Of a stretch of 64,000 bases of DNA, positions 49,805-59,903 are shown piece after piece. The DNA is from Pontiella agarivorans (GTDB lineage: Bacteria; Verrucomicrobiota; Kiritimatiellia; Kiritimatiellales; Pontiellaceae), in assembly GCF_034531395.1 (NCBI RefSeq), contig NZ_JARVCO010000010.1, positions 372,001-436,000 of the forward strand, in the 5' to 3' direction. The translations under genes were made by a program, and so were the position numbers. How positions within the stretch are numbered: the first letter of the stretch is position 1; every line of letters begins with the position of its first letter. The notes below the pieces were generated by a model, which saw only the letters and a program-made list of their open reading frames with translations, made no database searches and was not told the origin of the DNA.

Positions 49805-52800
49805 CTAGTCGGTTGAACCGCAGCATTTTTTGTATTTTTTGCCGCTTCCGCAGGGGCAGGGGTCGTTCCGCCCCACCTGTTTTCCGGCCACCGCCTGCTT
49901 AACCGGCTTCGGTTGCGGCGGGGCATCCATGCCGGGCGGCAGGTCCATTCCCGGCGGGGGAGCGCCCATCGGCTGCGGCGGGCGCTGCTGTGGGCGAGGG
50001 CCCTGCTGTTGCGCAGCCCCAGCAGCCTGTGCCTGTGCCGTGGCGGCAGCCAGAGCTGATGCCTGCGGGTTATGCTGCACGCGCATGTTCGACATGCTTT
50101 TGAAAAATTCCTCAATCGCTTCAACCGATGTGGCTGACCGGAAAATAGCCGTTGAAATCTCTTCGTAGATTCGGTCCATCAGGTCCATGAACAGATGATA
50201 GGCTTCGCGCTTATATTCAATCAGCGGATCGCGCTGGCCGTAGGCCTGCAGACCAATCGATTCACGCAGACTGTCCATGTTGCGGAGATATTCCTGCCAG
50301 TGTTCGTCGATGGACTGAATGATCATGTGACGTTCAAGGCGAACCAGTGATTCCGTATCCTCATGACGGGCTTTCAGGTCGTAGGCTTTTTTGACCGCGC
50401 TCAGGACCGCGTCTGTAAGGGACTCTTCGGTGATTTCGTCCGGAAGATTGTCCGTCCGCATCCCCAGCGGGAAGGTGGTGTTCACCCAGGCGATAAAGGG
50501 AGCGCAGTCTTCCTTCTTTTTAGTGACTGCTGCATCCGCGGCATGGGTGAGAATGGCCTGTTCGACAGCATGGTAAATCAGTTCGCGCGGATTTTCCGAT
50601 GTAAGCGCTTCGGAGCGGAAATCATAAATTTCCGTTCGCTGGGCATTCATTACATCGTCATATTCGAGCGTGCGCTTACGCATCATGAAATTCTGCTGTT
50701 CCACGCGGCGCTGGGCGGTTTCGATGGATTTATTGAGCCACGGGTGTTCCAGCACTTCGCCTTCTTCGATGCCGAGTTTTTCCATAATGCTGGAAATGCG
50801 GTCGGAGCCGAACAGGCGCATCAGGTTGTCTTCAAGTGAGACAAAGAACCGGGTAACGCCGGGGTCGCCCTGACGGGCTGAGCGTCCGCGCAGCTGCCGG
50901 TCGATCCGGCGGGATTCGTGGCGTTCAGATGCAATAACATAGAGACCGCACGGTTTTTCTTCGAGCAGTTTGGCCAGCGGTTTCCCGTCGACTTTGCTTT
51001 CCAGCGAAAACTCTTTGGAAAGCAGATCCTTTTTATCGAGATAAATAACCCCTTCGCCCAGCTTAATGTCGGTACCGCGACCGGCCATGTTCGTGGCAAT
51101 CGTCACCGCGCCGGGCTGACCTGCATTGGCGACAATTTCGGCTTCGCGAGCATGGTTTTTCGCATTGAGCACATTGTGCACAATATTTTCGCGCCGCAGC
51201 ATGCGGCTGAGCACTTCGGAGGTTTCAACGGCCACGGTGCCGACCAGTACCGGCTGCTTGCGGGCGTGTGCGGCTTTGATTTCCTCGATGACTGCGCGGA
51301 ATTTTTCGCGCTGTGTTTTATAGACCTGGTCATTGAGGTCCACGCGCCGCACCGGGCGGTTGGTCGGAATAACCATCACATCAAGGCCGTAGATCTGATG
51401 GAATTCATCGGCCTCGGTTTCTGCGGTGCCGGTCATTCCGGAGAGCTTGTCGTACATGCGGAAATAGTTCTGAATGGTGATGGTGGCCAGGGTCTGTGTT
51501 TCGCGTTCGATGGTTACGCCTTCTTTGGCTTCCACGGCCTGGTGAAGACCATCCGACCACCGTCGTCCGACCATCAGGCGCCCGGTATGCTCATCCACAA
51601 TATGCACCTGGCCGTCCTGTACCACGTAATCCACATCTTTTTCATAGACGCTGTACGCACGAATCAGCTGGTCAACGGCATGGACCCGTTCGTTGCGCAG
51701 GGCATAGTCTTCCTGAATCGAACGGCGTTTTTCCATGATCTCTTCCGGCGAAAGCGTGGTTTCGCCGTCGAGTTCGGCCATCATTGAAACCATATCGGGA
51801 AGGACATACATATCCGGATCATCCGGATTAAGCTCGGCACAGCCGATTTCCGTGAGATCGGCGTCGTGCCCTTTCTCATCGATGGTGAAGTAGAGTTCCT
51901 GCCGCAGTTCGCGGGCCTGTTTTTCGTTTTCCTTCTTGAGCATCTCCATCTGGATTTTTTCGAGGAGCTTGCGGTATTTTACCTCTTCGACGAGATGCAT
52001 CAGCTGCTTGTTTTTCGGCATGCCCTGATGAACCTGATAGAGTTTCAGTCCGGCTTCATAGTCCTCGTTCTGCTCCAGCAGTTCTTTGGCTTCTTTCAGC
52101 AGTTTCGTGCAGAGATCGCGCTGGCGGCGAACCAGACGGCTGGCCGCCGGCTGGAGCTCCTCATATTGAGTTGAGGAATAGGGAGCGGGGCCGGAAATAA
52201 TCAGCGGCGTCCGTGCTTCGTCGATCAGGATCGAGTCAATTTCGTCGACGATGGCAAAATTATGACCTTTCTGCTGCACCATGTCTTCGGAGCTGTAGGC
52301 CATGTTGTCGCGCAGGTAATCGAAGCCGAATTCCGAGTTTGTTCCGTAGGTAATATCGCAGAGATACTGTTCGCGGCGCTGCGGCGGGGGCATCATATTT
52401 TTCAGGCAGCCGACGGTCAGGCCCAGCCATTTATAAAGATGACCCATCCATTCCGAGTCGCGCTGGGAGTGATAATCCGAGGTGGTCACCACGTGCGCGC
52501 CTTTGCCGGAAAGTGCGTTAAGGTAAACCGGCAGGGTGGCGACGAGGGTTTTACCTTCCCCGGTTGCCATTTCGGCAATCATACCTTTATGAATGGCCAG
52601 ACCACCGATCAGCTGGACATCAAAATGAACCATATTCCACTCGATGGGATGGCCGATCACCTCCACGGTGGTTCCGCAGAGACGGCGGGAGGCATTTTTA
52701 ACGACAGCAAAAGCTTCGAGTTCAATGTCTTCAAGCGTCTCACCGTTTTTAAGGCGGTCCTTGAATTCCTGTGTTTTGGCCTGCAACTGCTCGTCGCTTA

Positions 52801-52909
52801 ACGCTTTGAATTCCTCGTCGTAAGCATTGATTTTCTCAACCAGCGGACGCATTTTTTTCAGGTCGCGTTCGTTCTTCGAGCCGAGTATCTTCTTCAAAAT
52901 CCAATTCAT
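49805..52909 (-). CDS. secA: Preprotein translocase ATPase SecA
   Basis: A 1034-residue motor for Sec export. Walker A region MATGEGKTLVATLP, motif VDEIDSILIDEARTPLIISG, the helicase motif GTVAVETSEVLS, then NMAGRGTDIKLGEGV, and the C-terminal zinc motif RNDPCPCGSGKKYKKCCG that binds SecB or ribosomes. Between about residues 245 and 380 there is a long charged insertion in the preprotein cross-linking domain, making it longer than E. coli SecA (901). A Pro/Gln/Ala-rich linker precedes the zinc motif. Confidence 0.97.
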   Translation of the reverse strand: MNWILKKILGSKNERDLKKMRPLVEKINAYDEEFKALSDEQLQAKTQEFKDRLKNGETLEDIELEAFAVVKNASRRLCGTTVEVIGHPIEWNMVHFDVQLIGGLAIHKGMIAEMATGEGKTLVATLPVYLNALSGKGAHVVTTSDYHSQRDSEWMGHLYKWLGLTVGCLKNMMPPPQRREQYLCDITYGTNSEFGFDYLRDNMAYSSEDMVQQKGHNFAIVDEIDSILIDEARTPLIISGPAPYSSTQYEELQPAASRLVRRQRDLCTKLLKEAKELLEQNEDYEAGLKLYQVHQGMPKNKQLMHLVEEVKYRKLLEKIQMEMLKKENEKQARELRQELYFTIDEKGHDADLTEIGCAELNPDDPDMYVLPDMVSMMAELDGETTLSPEEIMEKRRSIQEDYALRNERVHAVDQLIRAYSVYEKDVDYVVQDGQVHIVDEHTGRLMVGRRWSDGLHQAVEAKEGVTIERETQTLATITIQNYFRMYDKLSGMTGTAETEADEFHQIYGLDVMVIPTNRPVRRVDLNDQVYKTQREKFRAVIEEIKAAHARKQPVLVGTVAVETSEVLSRMLRRENIVHNVLNAKNHAREAEIVANAGQPGAVTIATNMAGRGTDIKLGEGVIYLDKKDLLSKEFSLESKVDGKPLAKLLEEKPCGLYVIASERHESRRIDRQLRGRSARQGDPGVTRFFVSLEDNLMRLFGSDRISSIMEKLGIEEGEVLEHPWLNKSIETAQRRVEQQNFMMRKRTLEYDDVMNAQRTEIYDFRSEALTSENPRELIYHAVEQAILTHAADAAVTKKKEDCAPFIAWVNTTFPLGMRTDNLPDEITEESLTDAVLSAVKKAYDLKARHEDTESLVRLERHMIIQSIDEHWQEYLRNMDSLRESIGLQAYGQRDPLIEYKREAYHLFMDLMDRIYEEISTAIFRSATSVEAIEEFFKSMSNMRVQHNPQASALAAATAQAQAAGAAQQQGPRPQQRPPQPMGAPPPGMDLPPGMDAPPQPKPVKQAVAGKQVGRNDPCPCGSGKKYKKCCGSTD

Positions 52910-53040: not shown

Positions 53041-54534
53041 ATGGCGGCGGTCAAAATAGCATTCCAACCCATGCCAGAATGTGAACCCAATCCCGTGCCG
53101 CTGGTGATTTTCGGCGTACCTTTTCATAATGTCACTTTCGAGGAAGCCATCGACTGGATCGTTGCTCGCGTACGCTCCGGCCGTCCGGCCAATATTGCCA
53201 CGGCAAATCTCGACTTTGTCACCCGTGCCTGGGCAGACCCCGAATTGCAACGTATTCTTATCGATGCAGATCTGGTGCTCGCCGACGGGTTCCCGATGGT
53301 TAAGCTTTCACCGCTGTTCGGTCCAAAGCTCAAAGATCGCGTTACCGGGTCAGATCTCACCCCAATGCTGGCTGCTCGTGCTGCTGAAGAGGGAATGAGT
53401 ATCTACGGCCTCGGTTCCGCTCCCGGGGTTGCTGAAAAAGCATTGAATATACTCAAAAAACGCCACCCCGGCCTCCAGGTTGCCGGCTGCTTTTCACCGC
53501 CGTTTACTTCATTGCTGAAGATGGATCACCGCGAAATTCTCCAGCGTCTGGAAAACGCCGCCCCCGATATTCTTTTTGTCGCCTTCGGGGCCCCGAAACA
53601 GGATAAATTTATCAGCATGCATGTGCGCAGCTGGAATATTCCCGTTTCCATTGGGGTTGGTGCGTCGCTCGACTTCATTTCCGGAAAACAGAAGAGGGCT
53701 CCGAAAATGATGCAGAAATGCTGCCTCGAATGGCTCTGGCGGGTCTGTTGCAGTCCGCGCCGCCTTTTCGCGCGCTATCTGGCCAATTTGCATTTTCTGT
53801 TGTCCGCCTCACGGCAGCTGCGAACGATCCATAAAATGCCGGATCATGAAGTTATATTCCAACCATTGGATGAGCATTCTGTTCTGTCCTTGGAACAAAG
53901 CCGGATTACCGTTGCCCGTTTTCATTCGCTGGACTCTGCGGAAAGCGCCGCCGAATTTATCAGACAGGCCGGAGAACAGAGCTTTGGCAATAATCTGCTG
54001 CTCGATCTTCATGCGGTACCCTGGCTCAGCAGTCTCGAACTTGGGGCTCTGCTGGAAATTAATAAAATCAGTCGAAGGCAGGGATTTCGTCTGATTCTTT
54101 ATGCCGCCCGGCCGAAGGTCCGGACCCTGCTGGAAACCTGCCGGCTGACAGACTATTTCTCGATTGCCTACACGCTTAAAGACGCTGAGGAAATGGCGAG
54201 AAAGCTGGTGGAACATGCCGATGGCGAGGCGCTTTACTCGGACGGACGGCTTAAACTCAAACTGCCCATCGAGCTCAGTGCGGCCTCTCTTCCTAAGTTC
54301 GAGGTGGATACGCAAGTGCTGCAGCAGAAACTTGTGCAGAAGGGCTTGCTTAAATCAATTGAAGTCGACGCCGCCCAGCTTGATTTCATCGACAGTGCCG
54401 GGCTCGGCTATCTTATCGCCCTCAAAAAACGGGCCTCAGACACCCGCATCAGTATGTCCATCAGCAACCTCGATCCCAAACTGCGCCGTACTTTCGAAAT
54501 TGCCCGCGTTGATAAAATTCTCCTGCGCGCCTGA
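53041..54534 (+). CDS. WecG/TagA-family glycosyltransferase fused to two STAS domains
   Basis: A 497-residue protein. Residues about 18-255 are a GT26 (WecG/TagA/CpsF) glycosyltransferase: TANLDFVTRAWADPEL, DADLVLADGFPMV, TGSDLTPML, FVAFGAPKQDKFI, IGVGASLDFISG and the C-terminal EWLWRVCCSPRRLFARYL. GT26 enzymes transfer a sugar such as ManNAc to a lipid carrier. Residues about 285-392 and 400-497 look like two STAS domains; the second has DFIDSAGLGYLIAL, with Ser452 where anti-sigma antagonists are phosphorylated. No polysaccharide genes are adjacent. ATG 53041 or 53071 could be the start. Confidence 0.8.
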   Translation: MAAVKIAFQPMPECEPNPVPLVIFGVPFHNVTFEEAIDWIVARVRSGRPANIATANLDFVTRAWADPELQRILIDADLVLADGFPMVKLSPLFGPKLKDRVTGSDLTPMLAARAAEEGMSIYGLGSAPGVAEKALNILKKRHPGLQVAGCFSPPFTSLLKMDHREILQRLENAAPDILFVAFGAPKQDKFISMHVRSWNIPVSIGVGASLDFISGKQKRAPKMMQKCCLEWLWRVCCSPRRLFARYLANLHFLLSASRQLRTIHKMPDHEVIFQPLDEHSVLSLEQSRITVARFHSLDSAESAAEFIRQAGEQSFGNNLLLDLHAVPWLSSLELGALLEINKISRRQGFRLILYAARPKVRTLLETCRLTDYFSIAYTLKDAEEMARKLVEHADGEALYSDGRLKLKLPIELSAASLPKFEVDTQVLQQKLVQKGLLKSIEVDAAQLDFIDSAGLGYLIALKKRASDTRISMSISNLDPKLRRTFEIARVDKILLRA

Positions 54535-57691: not shown

Positions 57692-58585
57692 CTACCGCAT
57701 CAGCAGCAGGCTGAGGGCCATAACGAGCATGCCGGCGACGAGACCAAAAAGGGAGTCGTGGCCTTTTCCGTAGGCGCGGCTGGTGGGCAGAAGTTCGTCG
57801 AGGCTGATGTAGACCATGATGCCGGCGACGCCGCCGAAAAGGATGCCCATGATCTGGGGCGGAATGACCCCGGAGTCTCCGCCGACGAAAAAGAGGATGG
57901 CGAAGTAGGCAATGATGGCGCCGACGGGTTCGGCGAGGCCGGAGAGGAAGGAATAGATGAAGGCTTTTTTGCGGTCGCCGGTGGCGTAGAAGATCGGGAC
58001 GGAAACGCTGATGCCTTCGGGAATGTTGTGCAGGGCGATGGCAATAGCGATCGGAATACCGAGGGTGGGATCCTCCAGTGCGGCCAAAAAGGTGGCGAGG
58101 CCTTCCGGAAAGTTGTGAATGGCAATGGCGAGCGCTGTGAAGAGGCCCATGCGCATCAGCTTGGCATTGTGTTTGGTCTGGGCTTCCTCTTCCGCAATGG
58201 TTTTCATTTTGAGCTCATCGGATGTGGGGATCGGAGCATCGGGATCGTGGAGGGGTTTAGTTTCGTATTCGGTATGGATTTCGTGCGGGTTTTCCGCATG
58301 CGGAATCAGGGCATCGATAATGCCGATCAGCGCCATGCCGCCGAAGAAGGAGGCGCAGTTGATCCAGTGTCCCATCGGGTCGCCGTAGGACTCCACGAGG
58401 GCGTCGATGCCTTTGATGAAAATTTCAACGAAGGAGACATAGAGCATGACACCGGCGGAAAATCCGGTGGCGATGGAGAGGAAGCGGTAATTGGTCCGTT
58501 GGGCCAGAAAGGCAATAGCGCTGCCGATGCCGGTGGCCATGCCGGCGAAGACCGTTAAACCGAGAGCAAACCAGACGTGATTCAT
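57692..58585 (-). CDS. ZIP-family zinc transporter (ZupT type)
   Basis: A 297-residue membrane protein with eight probable helices. The metal-path motifs are [13 protein letters not shown] and [13 protein letters not shown] in helices 4 and 5, as in ZupT. A cytoplasmic loop (about 97-135) carries His and acidic residues. It imports Zn2+ and other divalent metals. Its ATGA start overlaps the stop of the phosphatase gene by 4 bases. Confidence 0.92.
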
Positions 58586-59115
58586 TGTTCGTTCTGTTCC
58601 TTTAGTCGCGCGGAGAGCGGTGAGAAGCGGGCCATGAGTCTGCGCTGCTCATCGGTCATGTTGGTCTGCATGAACTGCCGGATATACGTGCGTGCTTCTT
58701 CGGCGTCGATGCCCATAAAATCGCGGACGATGCATCCGGTCATCACGCCGGTGCGGCCGACGCCGGCATTGCAGTGAACGGCCACATTGGCCCCGGCCCT
58801 GAGGTAGCCGACGATTTTGTCGACCACTTTGGAAAAGGCGTGCAGTTCGGGGCTGGTGTAATCGGCAATGGGAAAACGGATCGGCTCAATACCGTTGTCC
58901 TTGTAAATTTTGATGACATCCTTTTTGGCTTTTCTCGCCAGCTCCACGTCCGTCACGAGCATGACGGCAAACTGGATTTTCCGGTGTTTATAGATTTTCA
59001 GCAAGGCGTTGCCCGGGTCGTACGGGCCGAACGGCATAGGGCTGACATAGAGCCGGCCCTTCGCATCGAGCGGAATTTCTACGCAGGTTTCTTCTTTTCT
59101 GCCGAACAGGAACAT
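58582..59115 (-). CDS. Dual-specificity/tyrosine phosphatase-like protein
   Basis: A 177-residue protein with the Cys-based phosphatase loop [15 protein letters not shown] (CxxGxGRTG) and an upstream general-acid Asp candidate in [10 protein letters not shown]. The size and wording fit small dual-specificity or cyclin-dependent-kinase-inhibitor-3-like phosphatases. ATG 59115 has TTGGAGAA before it. It is coupled to the ZIP transporter by overlap; the link between them is unknown. Confidence 0.85.
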
Positions 59116-59252
59116 CCAATTCTCCAATTAGAACTGGCGAAACCCTATAATCATCCCCTGAAAAAATGAATCGGTAATTGCAGATATTCGAGATCGGCAT
59201 TTTCAATATTTGGAAATTGCATGCCTTGCGCAGCGCATACAGACTGCTGGAT

Positions 59253-59903
59253 ATGGATATTGAACTGCTGATTAAAAACTCCTCTTTTTTCAAGGGGTTG
59301 AACGGGGAGCACCGTATTGAACTCGCAAGCATCTGCTCGCTGAAGAGCCTCAGGAAGCGCGAATACCTCTTTCATGAAGGAGAGTTCGGCAAGAGCATGT
59401 TCCTGTTGATCGGCGGCAATGTGCAGTTGCACAAAAATACCGAAGACGGCCGCGAAGTGGTCATCCGCATTGTAAAACCCGGTGAAATTTTTGCGGAAGT
59501 GGTTTTGTTCGAGGCCGACTGCTTTCCGGTATCCGCCCGGGCGGTGACGCCCGTAGACGTGCTGGTTTTTCCCAGGGACGGCATTCACCGTCTGCTGGCG
59601 CAGGAGGGTTTCCGCAGCGATTTTATTGCGCAGCTCATGCTGAAGCAGCGCTACCTGACCGAGCGGATTCAGGAGCTGTCGACCAAAGACGTGGAGTACC
59701 GCTTTTTCACCTTTCTGCGCGATCAGTACGGCGAAAAGGAGCTCATCCATACGCCGCTCTCTAAAAAGGATATTGCCGCGGGCATCGGCACGACGCCCGA
59801 AAGCCTCTCCCGCCTGATCCAGCGCCTGACCGAAGATGAGATCATCGCGTGGAAGGGAAAGGAAATTAAGATTCTTTCCAATCCCTGGAAATGGCTGGGT
59901 TGA
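59253..59903 (+). CDS. Crp/Fnr-family regulator
   Basis: A 216-residue regulator. The cyclic-nucleotide-binding-like beta roll includes LFHEGEFGKSMFLLIGGNVQ and VKPGEIFAEVVLFE; the C-terminal HTH_CRP has LSKKDIAAGIGTTPESLSRL, then IQRLTEDEII. The FNR Cys cluster is absent. Size and the neighbouring ferredoxin and cupin genes recall HcpR or nitrosative-stress regulators. The in-frame ORF extends to 59178, but residues before MDIELL are not family-like. A TTCCAATCCCTGGAA palindrome lies near its 3' end (59876-59890). Confidence 0.85.
   Translation: MDIELLIKNSSFFKGLNGEHRIELASICSLKSLRKREYLFHEGEFGKSMFLLIGGNVQLHKNTEDGREVVIRIVKPGEIFAEVVLFEADCFPVSARAVTPVDVLVFPRDGIHRLLAQEGFRSDFIAQLMLKQRYLTERIQELSTKDVEYRFFTFLRDQYGEKELIHTPLSKKDIAAGIGTTPESLSRLIQRLTEDEIIAWKGKEIKILSNPWKWLG

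Follow-up and report, generated by a model that had tools for sequence, protein, structure and literature searches.

The marine bacterium Pontiella agarivorans encodes a glycosyltransferase of family GT26 (WecG/TagA type) that runs on, within a single protein, into two STAS domains. The same joined protein recurs in several phyla, and its presence matches that of a partner-switch operon that also encodes an initiating sugar transferase. We interpret the fusion as a membrane-associated glycosyltransferase whose STAS domains would tie the enzyme to a partner switch that governs the synthesis of polysaccharides, a reading that we hold at about even chances.

Architecture of the fusion protein

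The fusion gene lies in the window, by which we mean the whole 64,000-nucleotide stretch analysed (C10:372001-436000), in a genome of 4.4 Mb. An earlier note, made from the sequence alone, had described it as a complete WecG/TagA-type enzyme joined to tandem STAS domains and standing alone between secA and nfi. Pfam, the AF2 model and structural matches agree with that description, and the isolated position is as stated. The Glyco_tran_WecG profile (PF03808) matches residues 76-246 as a full-length domain with 185 bits and TIGR00696 matches with 123 bits, both exceeding the curated cut-off (Pfam/NCBIfam) for GT26. STAS profiles match two stretches of the remainder with 68 bits summed, STAS_2 being strongest at residues 429-491. 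An AF2 model, for which 56 relatives were used together with the window protein, reached a pLDDT of 93.7 and a pTM of 0.91. In structure comparisons of this model, residues 19-219 match TagA with a Z score of 27, residues 276-392 match the STAS domains of SLC26A11 and of RsbR-type stressosome proteins (Z 12-13), and residues 392-497 match SpoIIAA/RsbV (Z 14.5-14.9). Both STAS folds, which the earlier note had left to structure prediction, are thus predicted with confidence. Translation probably starts at M11 (53071), giving a protein of 487 residues, because most orthologues start there and the model shows no structure for residues 1-11.

Table 1. Coordinates of the fusion gene, its parts and secA in the window, and sizes of the proteins of the C2 operon.
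Feature	Position	Strand	Remarks
GT26-STAS-STAS fusion protein	53041..54534	+	497 aa, one open frame
GT26 (WecG/TagA) domain	53095..53790	+	aa 19-250, C-terminal appendage helices included
STAS domain 1	53866..54213	+	aa 276-391; Pfam, AF2, structure match
Ser331 codon, phospho-acceptor position of STAS1	54031..54033	+	alignment of relatives
STAS domain 2	54214..54531	+	aa 392-497, nearest SpoIIAA/RsbV; Pfam, structure match
Asp451-Ser452 codons	54391..54396	+	DSAGLG, 451-456; alignment of relatives
secA, divergent neighbour of the fusion	49805..52909	-	
C2 operon, Hpt			119 aa
C2 operon, REC-SpoIIE-HATPase_c_2 (L047:5552-7189)			546 aa
C2 operon, Bac_transf			254 aa
C2 operon, STAS			113 aa
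C2 operon, hexapeptide/nucleotidyltransferase-like protein			472 aa

The GT26 part resembles TagA/TarA of Thermoanaerobacter italicus in its fold, its active-site residues and its membrane-binding C-terminal appendage. In TagA, T37, D65 and R221 are catalytic and further arginines lie in the appendage (PMC6493773). Alignment places T54, D82, R100, R234, R241 and R245 of the fusion opposite TagA T37, D65, R83, R214, R221 and R224, and none of the six varies among 57 relatives. The GT26 domain is probably an active enzyme, because the residues of the TagA active site do not vary among these relatives. Unlike TagA, which stops after the appendage, the fusion continues with its two STAS domains.

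Elsewhere in the window, a protein with a phosphatase-like motif (58582-59127, minus strand) is encoded next to, and divergently from, a CRP/FNR-type regulator (59178-59903, plus strand; Pfam cNMP_binding and HTH_Crp_2).

Candidate phosphorylation sites of the STAS domains

In the SpoIIAA family, the phosphorylated serine stands at the start of a helix, helix 2 in anti-sigma-factor antagonists of the SpoIIAA/RsbV/HsbA type. S331 of the first STAS domain and S452 of the second are each the first residue of a helix in the AF2 model, and the DSAGLG site that the earlier note had singled out in the second domain is where it had been placed. Position 331 is a serine in 50 of the 57 relatives, and an alanine, cysteine or proline in the seven rows of an Acidobacterial clade. 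Among the 41 relatives with two STAS domains, D451 is invariant; position 452 is a serine in 38, a cysteine in two and a threonine in one. One of the two cysteine carriers (L119) has the partner switch. The Acidobacterial relatives carry a single STAS domain without the serine. As judged from these alignments, phosphorylation of a STAS serine is not universal in the family, given the three substitutions at position 452 and the missing serine of the one-STAS Acidobacterial proteins. Since the latter have kept the domain without its serine, the STAS part has some role that is independent of phosphorylation.

These exceptions bear on the main rival to a switch, namely that the STAS domains form a constitutive docking or dimerization module, as MlaB does in MlaFEDB, that no phosphorylation takes place and that co-occurrence with the switch reflects a shared polysaccharide pathway. 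The Acidobacterial proteins are still encoded in polysaccharide loci, the substitutions at position 452 point the same way, and the structural matches include STAS chains of the MlaB type. Set against this is the retention of the serine at both sites in the large majorities given above, and we consider a purely structural role unlikely, though deserving of serious weight.

A small open reading frame in one genome (G003; L034:7716-8042, 108 aa) shares 53-54% identity with the second STAS domain. It lies a few genes downstream of an intact fusion and is perhaps a duplicated remnant. The backbone of a STAS tree does not resolve whether the second STAS domain originated from the STAS of the switch operon described below.

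Distribution of the fusion

Relatives were retrieved by using the alignment as query over genome contigs; a single-protein query returned none. The earlier note had proposed a search for the same fusion and for nearby partner-switch genes in relatives, and both were found, with HATPase/SpoIIE switch genes near the fusion in several of them. Within the genus, the joined protein is 60-69% identical and lies beside secA in most genomes, with the two genes almost always divergent; this conserved neighbourhood does not imply a functional link. By record labels, GT26-STAS or GT26-STAS-STAS proteins occur in Kiritimatiellota, Lentisphaerota, Verrucomicrobiota and Acidobacteria, with Rubritalea marina (Verrucomicrobia), Granulicella and Bryocella (Acidobacteria) among the named carriers. 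In the second family of Kiritimatiellales, the protein has a single STAS domain. Many of the distant relatives are encoded in polysaccharide clusters together with a flippase, Wzy, an OPX export protein and other glycosyltransferases, and the genes of these clusters often overlap.

None of the plasmid-borne GT26 matches (203 records) spans 80% of the fusion query, and the 25 matches listed all end at or before residue 277. The listed plasmid GT26 proteins stop short of the STAS part, and the fusion is therefore no general feature of GT26. A missed frameshift joining separate genes, which the earlier note had named as a way in which its description could fail, or an assembly artefact of that kind, finds one observation in its favour: in one genome (G008/L123; L041:8751-10210) the gene is read as two overlapping frames, with the break close to where the GT26 domain ends, owing either to a real frameshift or to a sequencing error. 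The identical joined frame is kept in at least 14 genomes of the genus and across several phyla, which rules out an artefact and leaves it a negligible probability.

The same P. agarivorans genome encodes a further GT26 protein on contig C2 (L024:6315-8903, at about 411-414 kb). This 862-residue protein begins with a long, seemingly membrane-spanning N-terminal region, followed by a tandem GT26 pair. Its gene belongs to a glycosyltransferase cluster that also encodes a Wzy_C protein, and similar long frames occur in several relatives.

A partner-switch operon with glycan enzymes

The earlier note had also suggested that a partner-switching system might control, or be controlled by, the fused enzyme. 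This stands in part: co-occurrence with an operon of the kind found on contig C2 and shared polysaccharide loci in several relatives support it indirectly, while the window itself has no HATPase_c_2 match and no STAS domain other than those of the fusion. The operon is located in the same genome as the fusion, on a separate contig, and encodes an Hpt protein, a REC-SpoIIE-HATPase_c_2 protein, a Bac_transf sugar transferase, a free STAS protein and a hexapeptide protein. The domain order of its switch protein, REC-PP2C-HATPase, is the layout of HsbR. All genes of an HptB-HsbR-HsbA-type system (Hpt, REC-PP2C-HATPase and STAS) are thus present in the genome, at a distance from the fusion. The operon shares these parts and this domain order with HptB-HsbR-HsbA of Pseudomonas aeruginosa (PMC6482189). 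In contrast to the Pseudomonas system, whose output is FlgM/RpoS/HsbD, it adds an initiating sugar transferase and a hexapeptide protein, and a glycosyltransferase carries a second pair of STAS domains as a fusion.

The order HsbR-like protein, Bac_transf, STAS and hexapeptide protein is found in eight Kiritimatiellales genomes and in 12 further fusion-bearing genomes, and an Hpt-like domain precedes most copies. In all eight genomes with both fusion and operon mapped, a match to the fusion's second STAS region lands on the operon STAS. The operon partners bear on the possibility that the fusion acts upstream as a sensor, such that the state of the GT26 part (lipid-linked substrate or membrane binding) lets the STAS domains titrate the kinase and glycan synthesis thereby signals to gene expression or a sigma factor. 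The earlier note had already raised this direction, and canonical SpoIIAA/RsbV-type STAS proteins act by sequestering kinases or anti-sigma factors (PMC8256260). However, the genes that recur with the switch in 20 genomes encode glycan enzymes (Bac_transf and hexapeptide proteins), and no sigma-factor gene was noticed in the switch operon on general inspection. We regard a sensor role as improbable.

Co-occurrence of fusion and switch

The joint distribution was evaluated in 115 genomes drawn evenly from the phylum, each at least 90% complete. The fusion is present in 14 of them and the switch protein in 11, and a search with the GT26 domain by itself finds 63; all 11 switch genomes fall within the 14 fusion genomes (Fisher 5e-13). 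Outside the class, three genomes with the fusion (G079, G112 and G120) have no C2-type switch. Among the 22 genomes of the class that bear a GT26 domain, the switch occurs in 11/11 with the fusion and 0/11 without it (Fisher p 2.8e-6, a value that ignores kinship, which was controlled only in part). Same-genus contrasts (g6, g9) show the same pattern: G087 has both fusion and switch and G134 neither; G159 has both and G098 neither. In the class, five genomes scored as fusion-negative have frames that are long enough (G122, G128, G134, G156 and G173); on re-reading, these frames end after the GT26 domain. The Verrucomicrobial HATPase-SpoIIE version of the switch shows no matching distribution with the fusion over the 115 genomes. 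The co-occurrence suggests that surface-polymer synthesis is switched on and off at the level of the enzyme. That the switch follows the fusion, and not GT26 generally, also speaks against a constitutive docking module.

An association between the number of STAS domains and the switch in 33 fusion genomes ([20,3;1,9], p 5e-5) was not relied on. The count omits one-STAS Kiritimatiellales genomes that have the switch, such as G026 and G028, and the tree provides only two to three independent contrasts. As one-STAS Kiritimatiellales relatives also have the switch, the second STAS domain is not strictly coupled to it.

Fusion and switch occasionally share a locus. They lie a few genes apart in L107 and L117, and in the genome of L124 both are part of one 26-kb locus with OPX, Wzy and more glycosyltransferases. 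In Rubritalea marina (L143), genes for a REC protein, a HATPase-SpoIIE protein, a hexapeptide protein with a C-terminal STAS domain (L143:5492-7027) and Bac_transf are followed by a divergent GT26-STAS gene and a further cluster gene, an arrangement that L142 resembles. In G017, the hexapeptide protein is fused to HATPase_c_2 and lies between Bac_transf and the free STAS (L226:2535-4803). Because the same parts recur in permuted arrangements, these loci argue for a working connection between the switch and the glycan enzymes.

A model for enzyme-level control

In the mechanism that we propose for partner-switch control, the GT26 part would help to build surface polysaccharides by transferring a ManNAc-like sugar, or some other hexose, onto a starter linked to undecaprenyl diphosphate. 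A phosphorelay that runs via Hpt to the C2 REC-PP2C-HATPase protein would lead to phosphorylation or dephosphorylation of STAS serines, so that the kinase/phosphatase would set the phospho-state of the fusion at S452, and perhaps S331, as well as that of the free STAS. The unphosphorylated STAS surface may then hold the HATPase domain or dock the initiating transferase. Through such contacts, chain initiation and addition of the second sugar would be assembled or released jointly.

Two other described systems come close. In Vibrio fischeri, SypA-SypE likewise links a STAS protein and a kinase/phosphatase to a polysaccharide locus; the unphosphorylated form of SypA is the active one, and its target is unknown (PMC4517449). 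Unlike SypA, a free STAS protein, the STAS domains described here are covalently part of a glycosyltransferase. The nearest precedent, and the sole joining of a glycosyltransferase with STAS that we found, is all4160 of Anabaena (Wang 2007, cited in PMC8256260). By its title, Wang 2007 deals with glycosyltransferase genes required for heterocyst envelope polysaccharide. Unlike in the fusion, the STAS domain of all4160 is N-terminal, and the passage on it in PMC8256260 describes no link to a switch.

The earlier note knew of no described fusion of this kind. We likewise found neither a GT26-STAS fusion nor a STAS/sugar-transferase operon in the open-access literature searched. The parts belong to known families; as far as this literature shows, what is new is that GT26 is fused to STAS, that this fusion is spread over several phyla and that its occurrence matches that of an HsbR-like/sugar-transferase operon.

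More broadly, we tentatively propose, with less confidence than for the fusion itself, that many PVC bacteria possess an enzyme-level switch. A phosphorelay-driven HsbR-like protein would act on STAS domains, either free or fused to a GT26 or hexapeptide glycan protein, and initiation and second-sugar addition would be gated by direct contacts and no sigma factor. A STAS domain held covalently on a defined glycosyltransferase offers a candidate target where, as for SypA, that of a STAS protein in polysaccharide control has been missing. It makes direct gating of an enzyme by partner switching testable, and a recurrent, uncharacterized operon of PVC bacteria gains a likely function.
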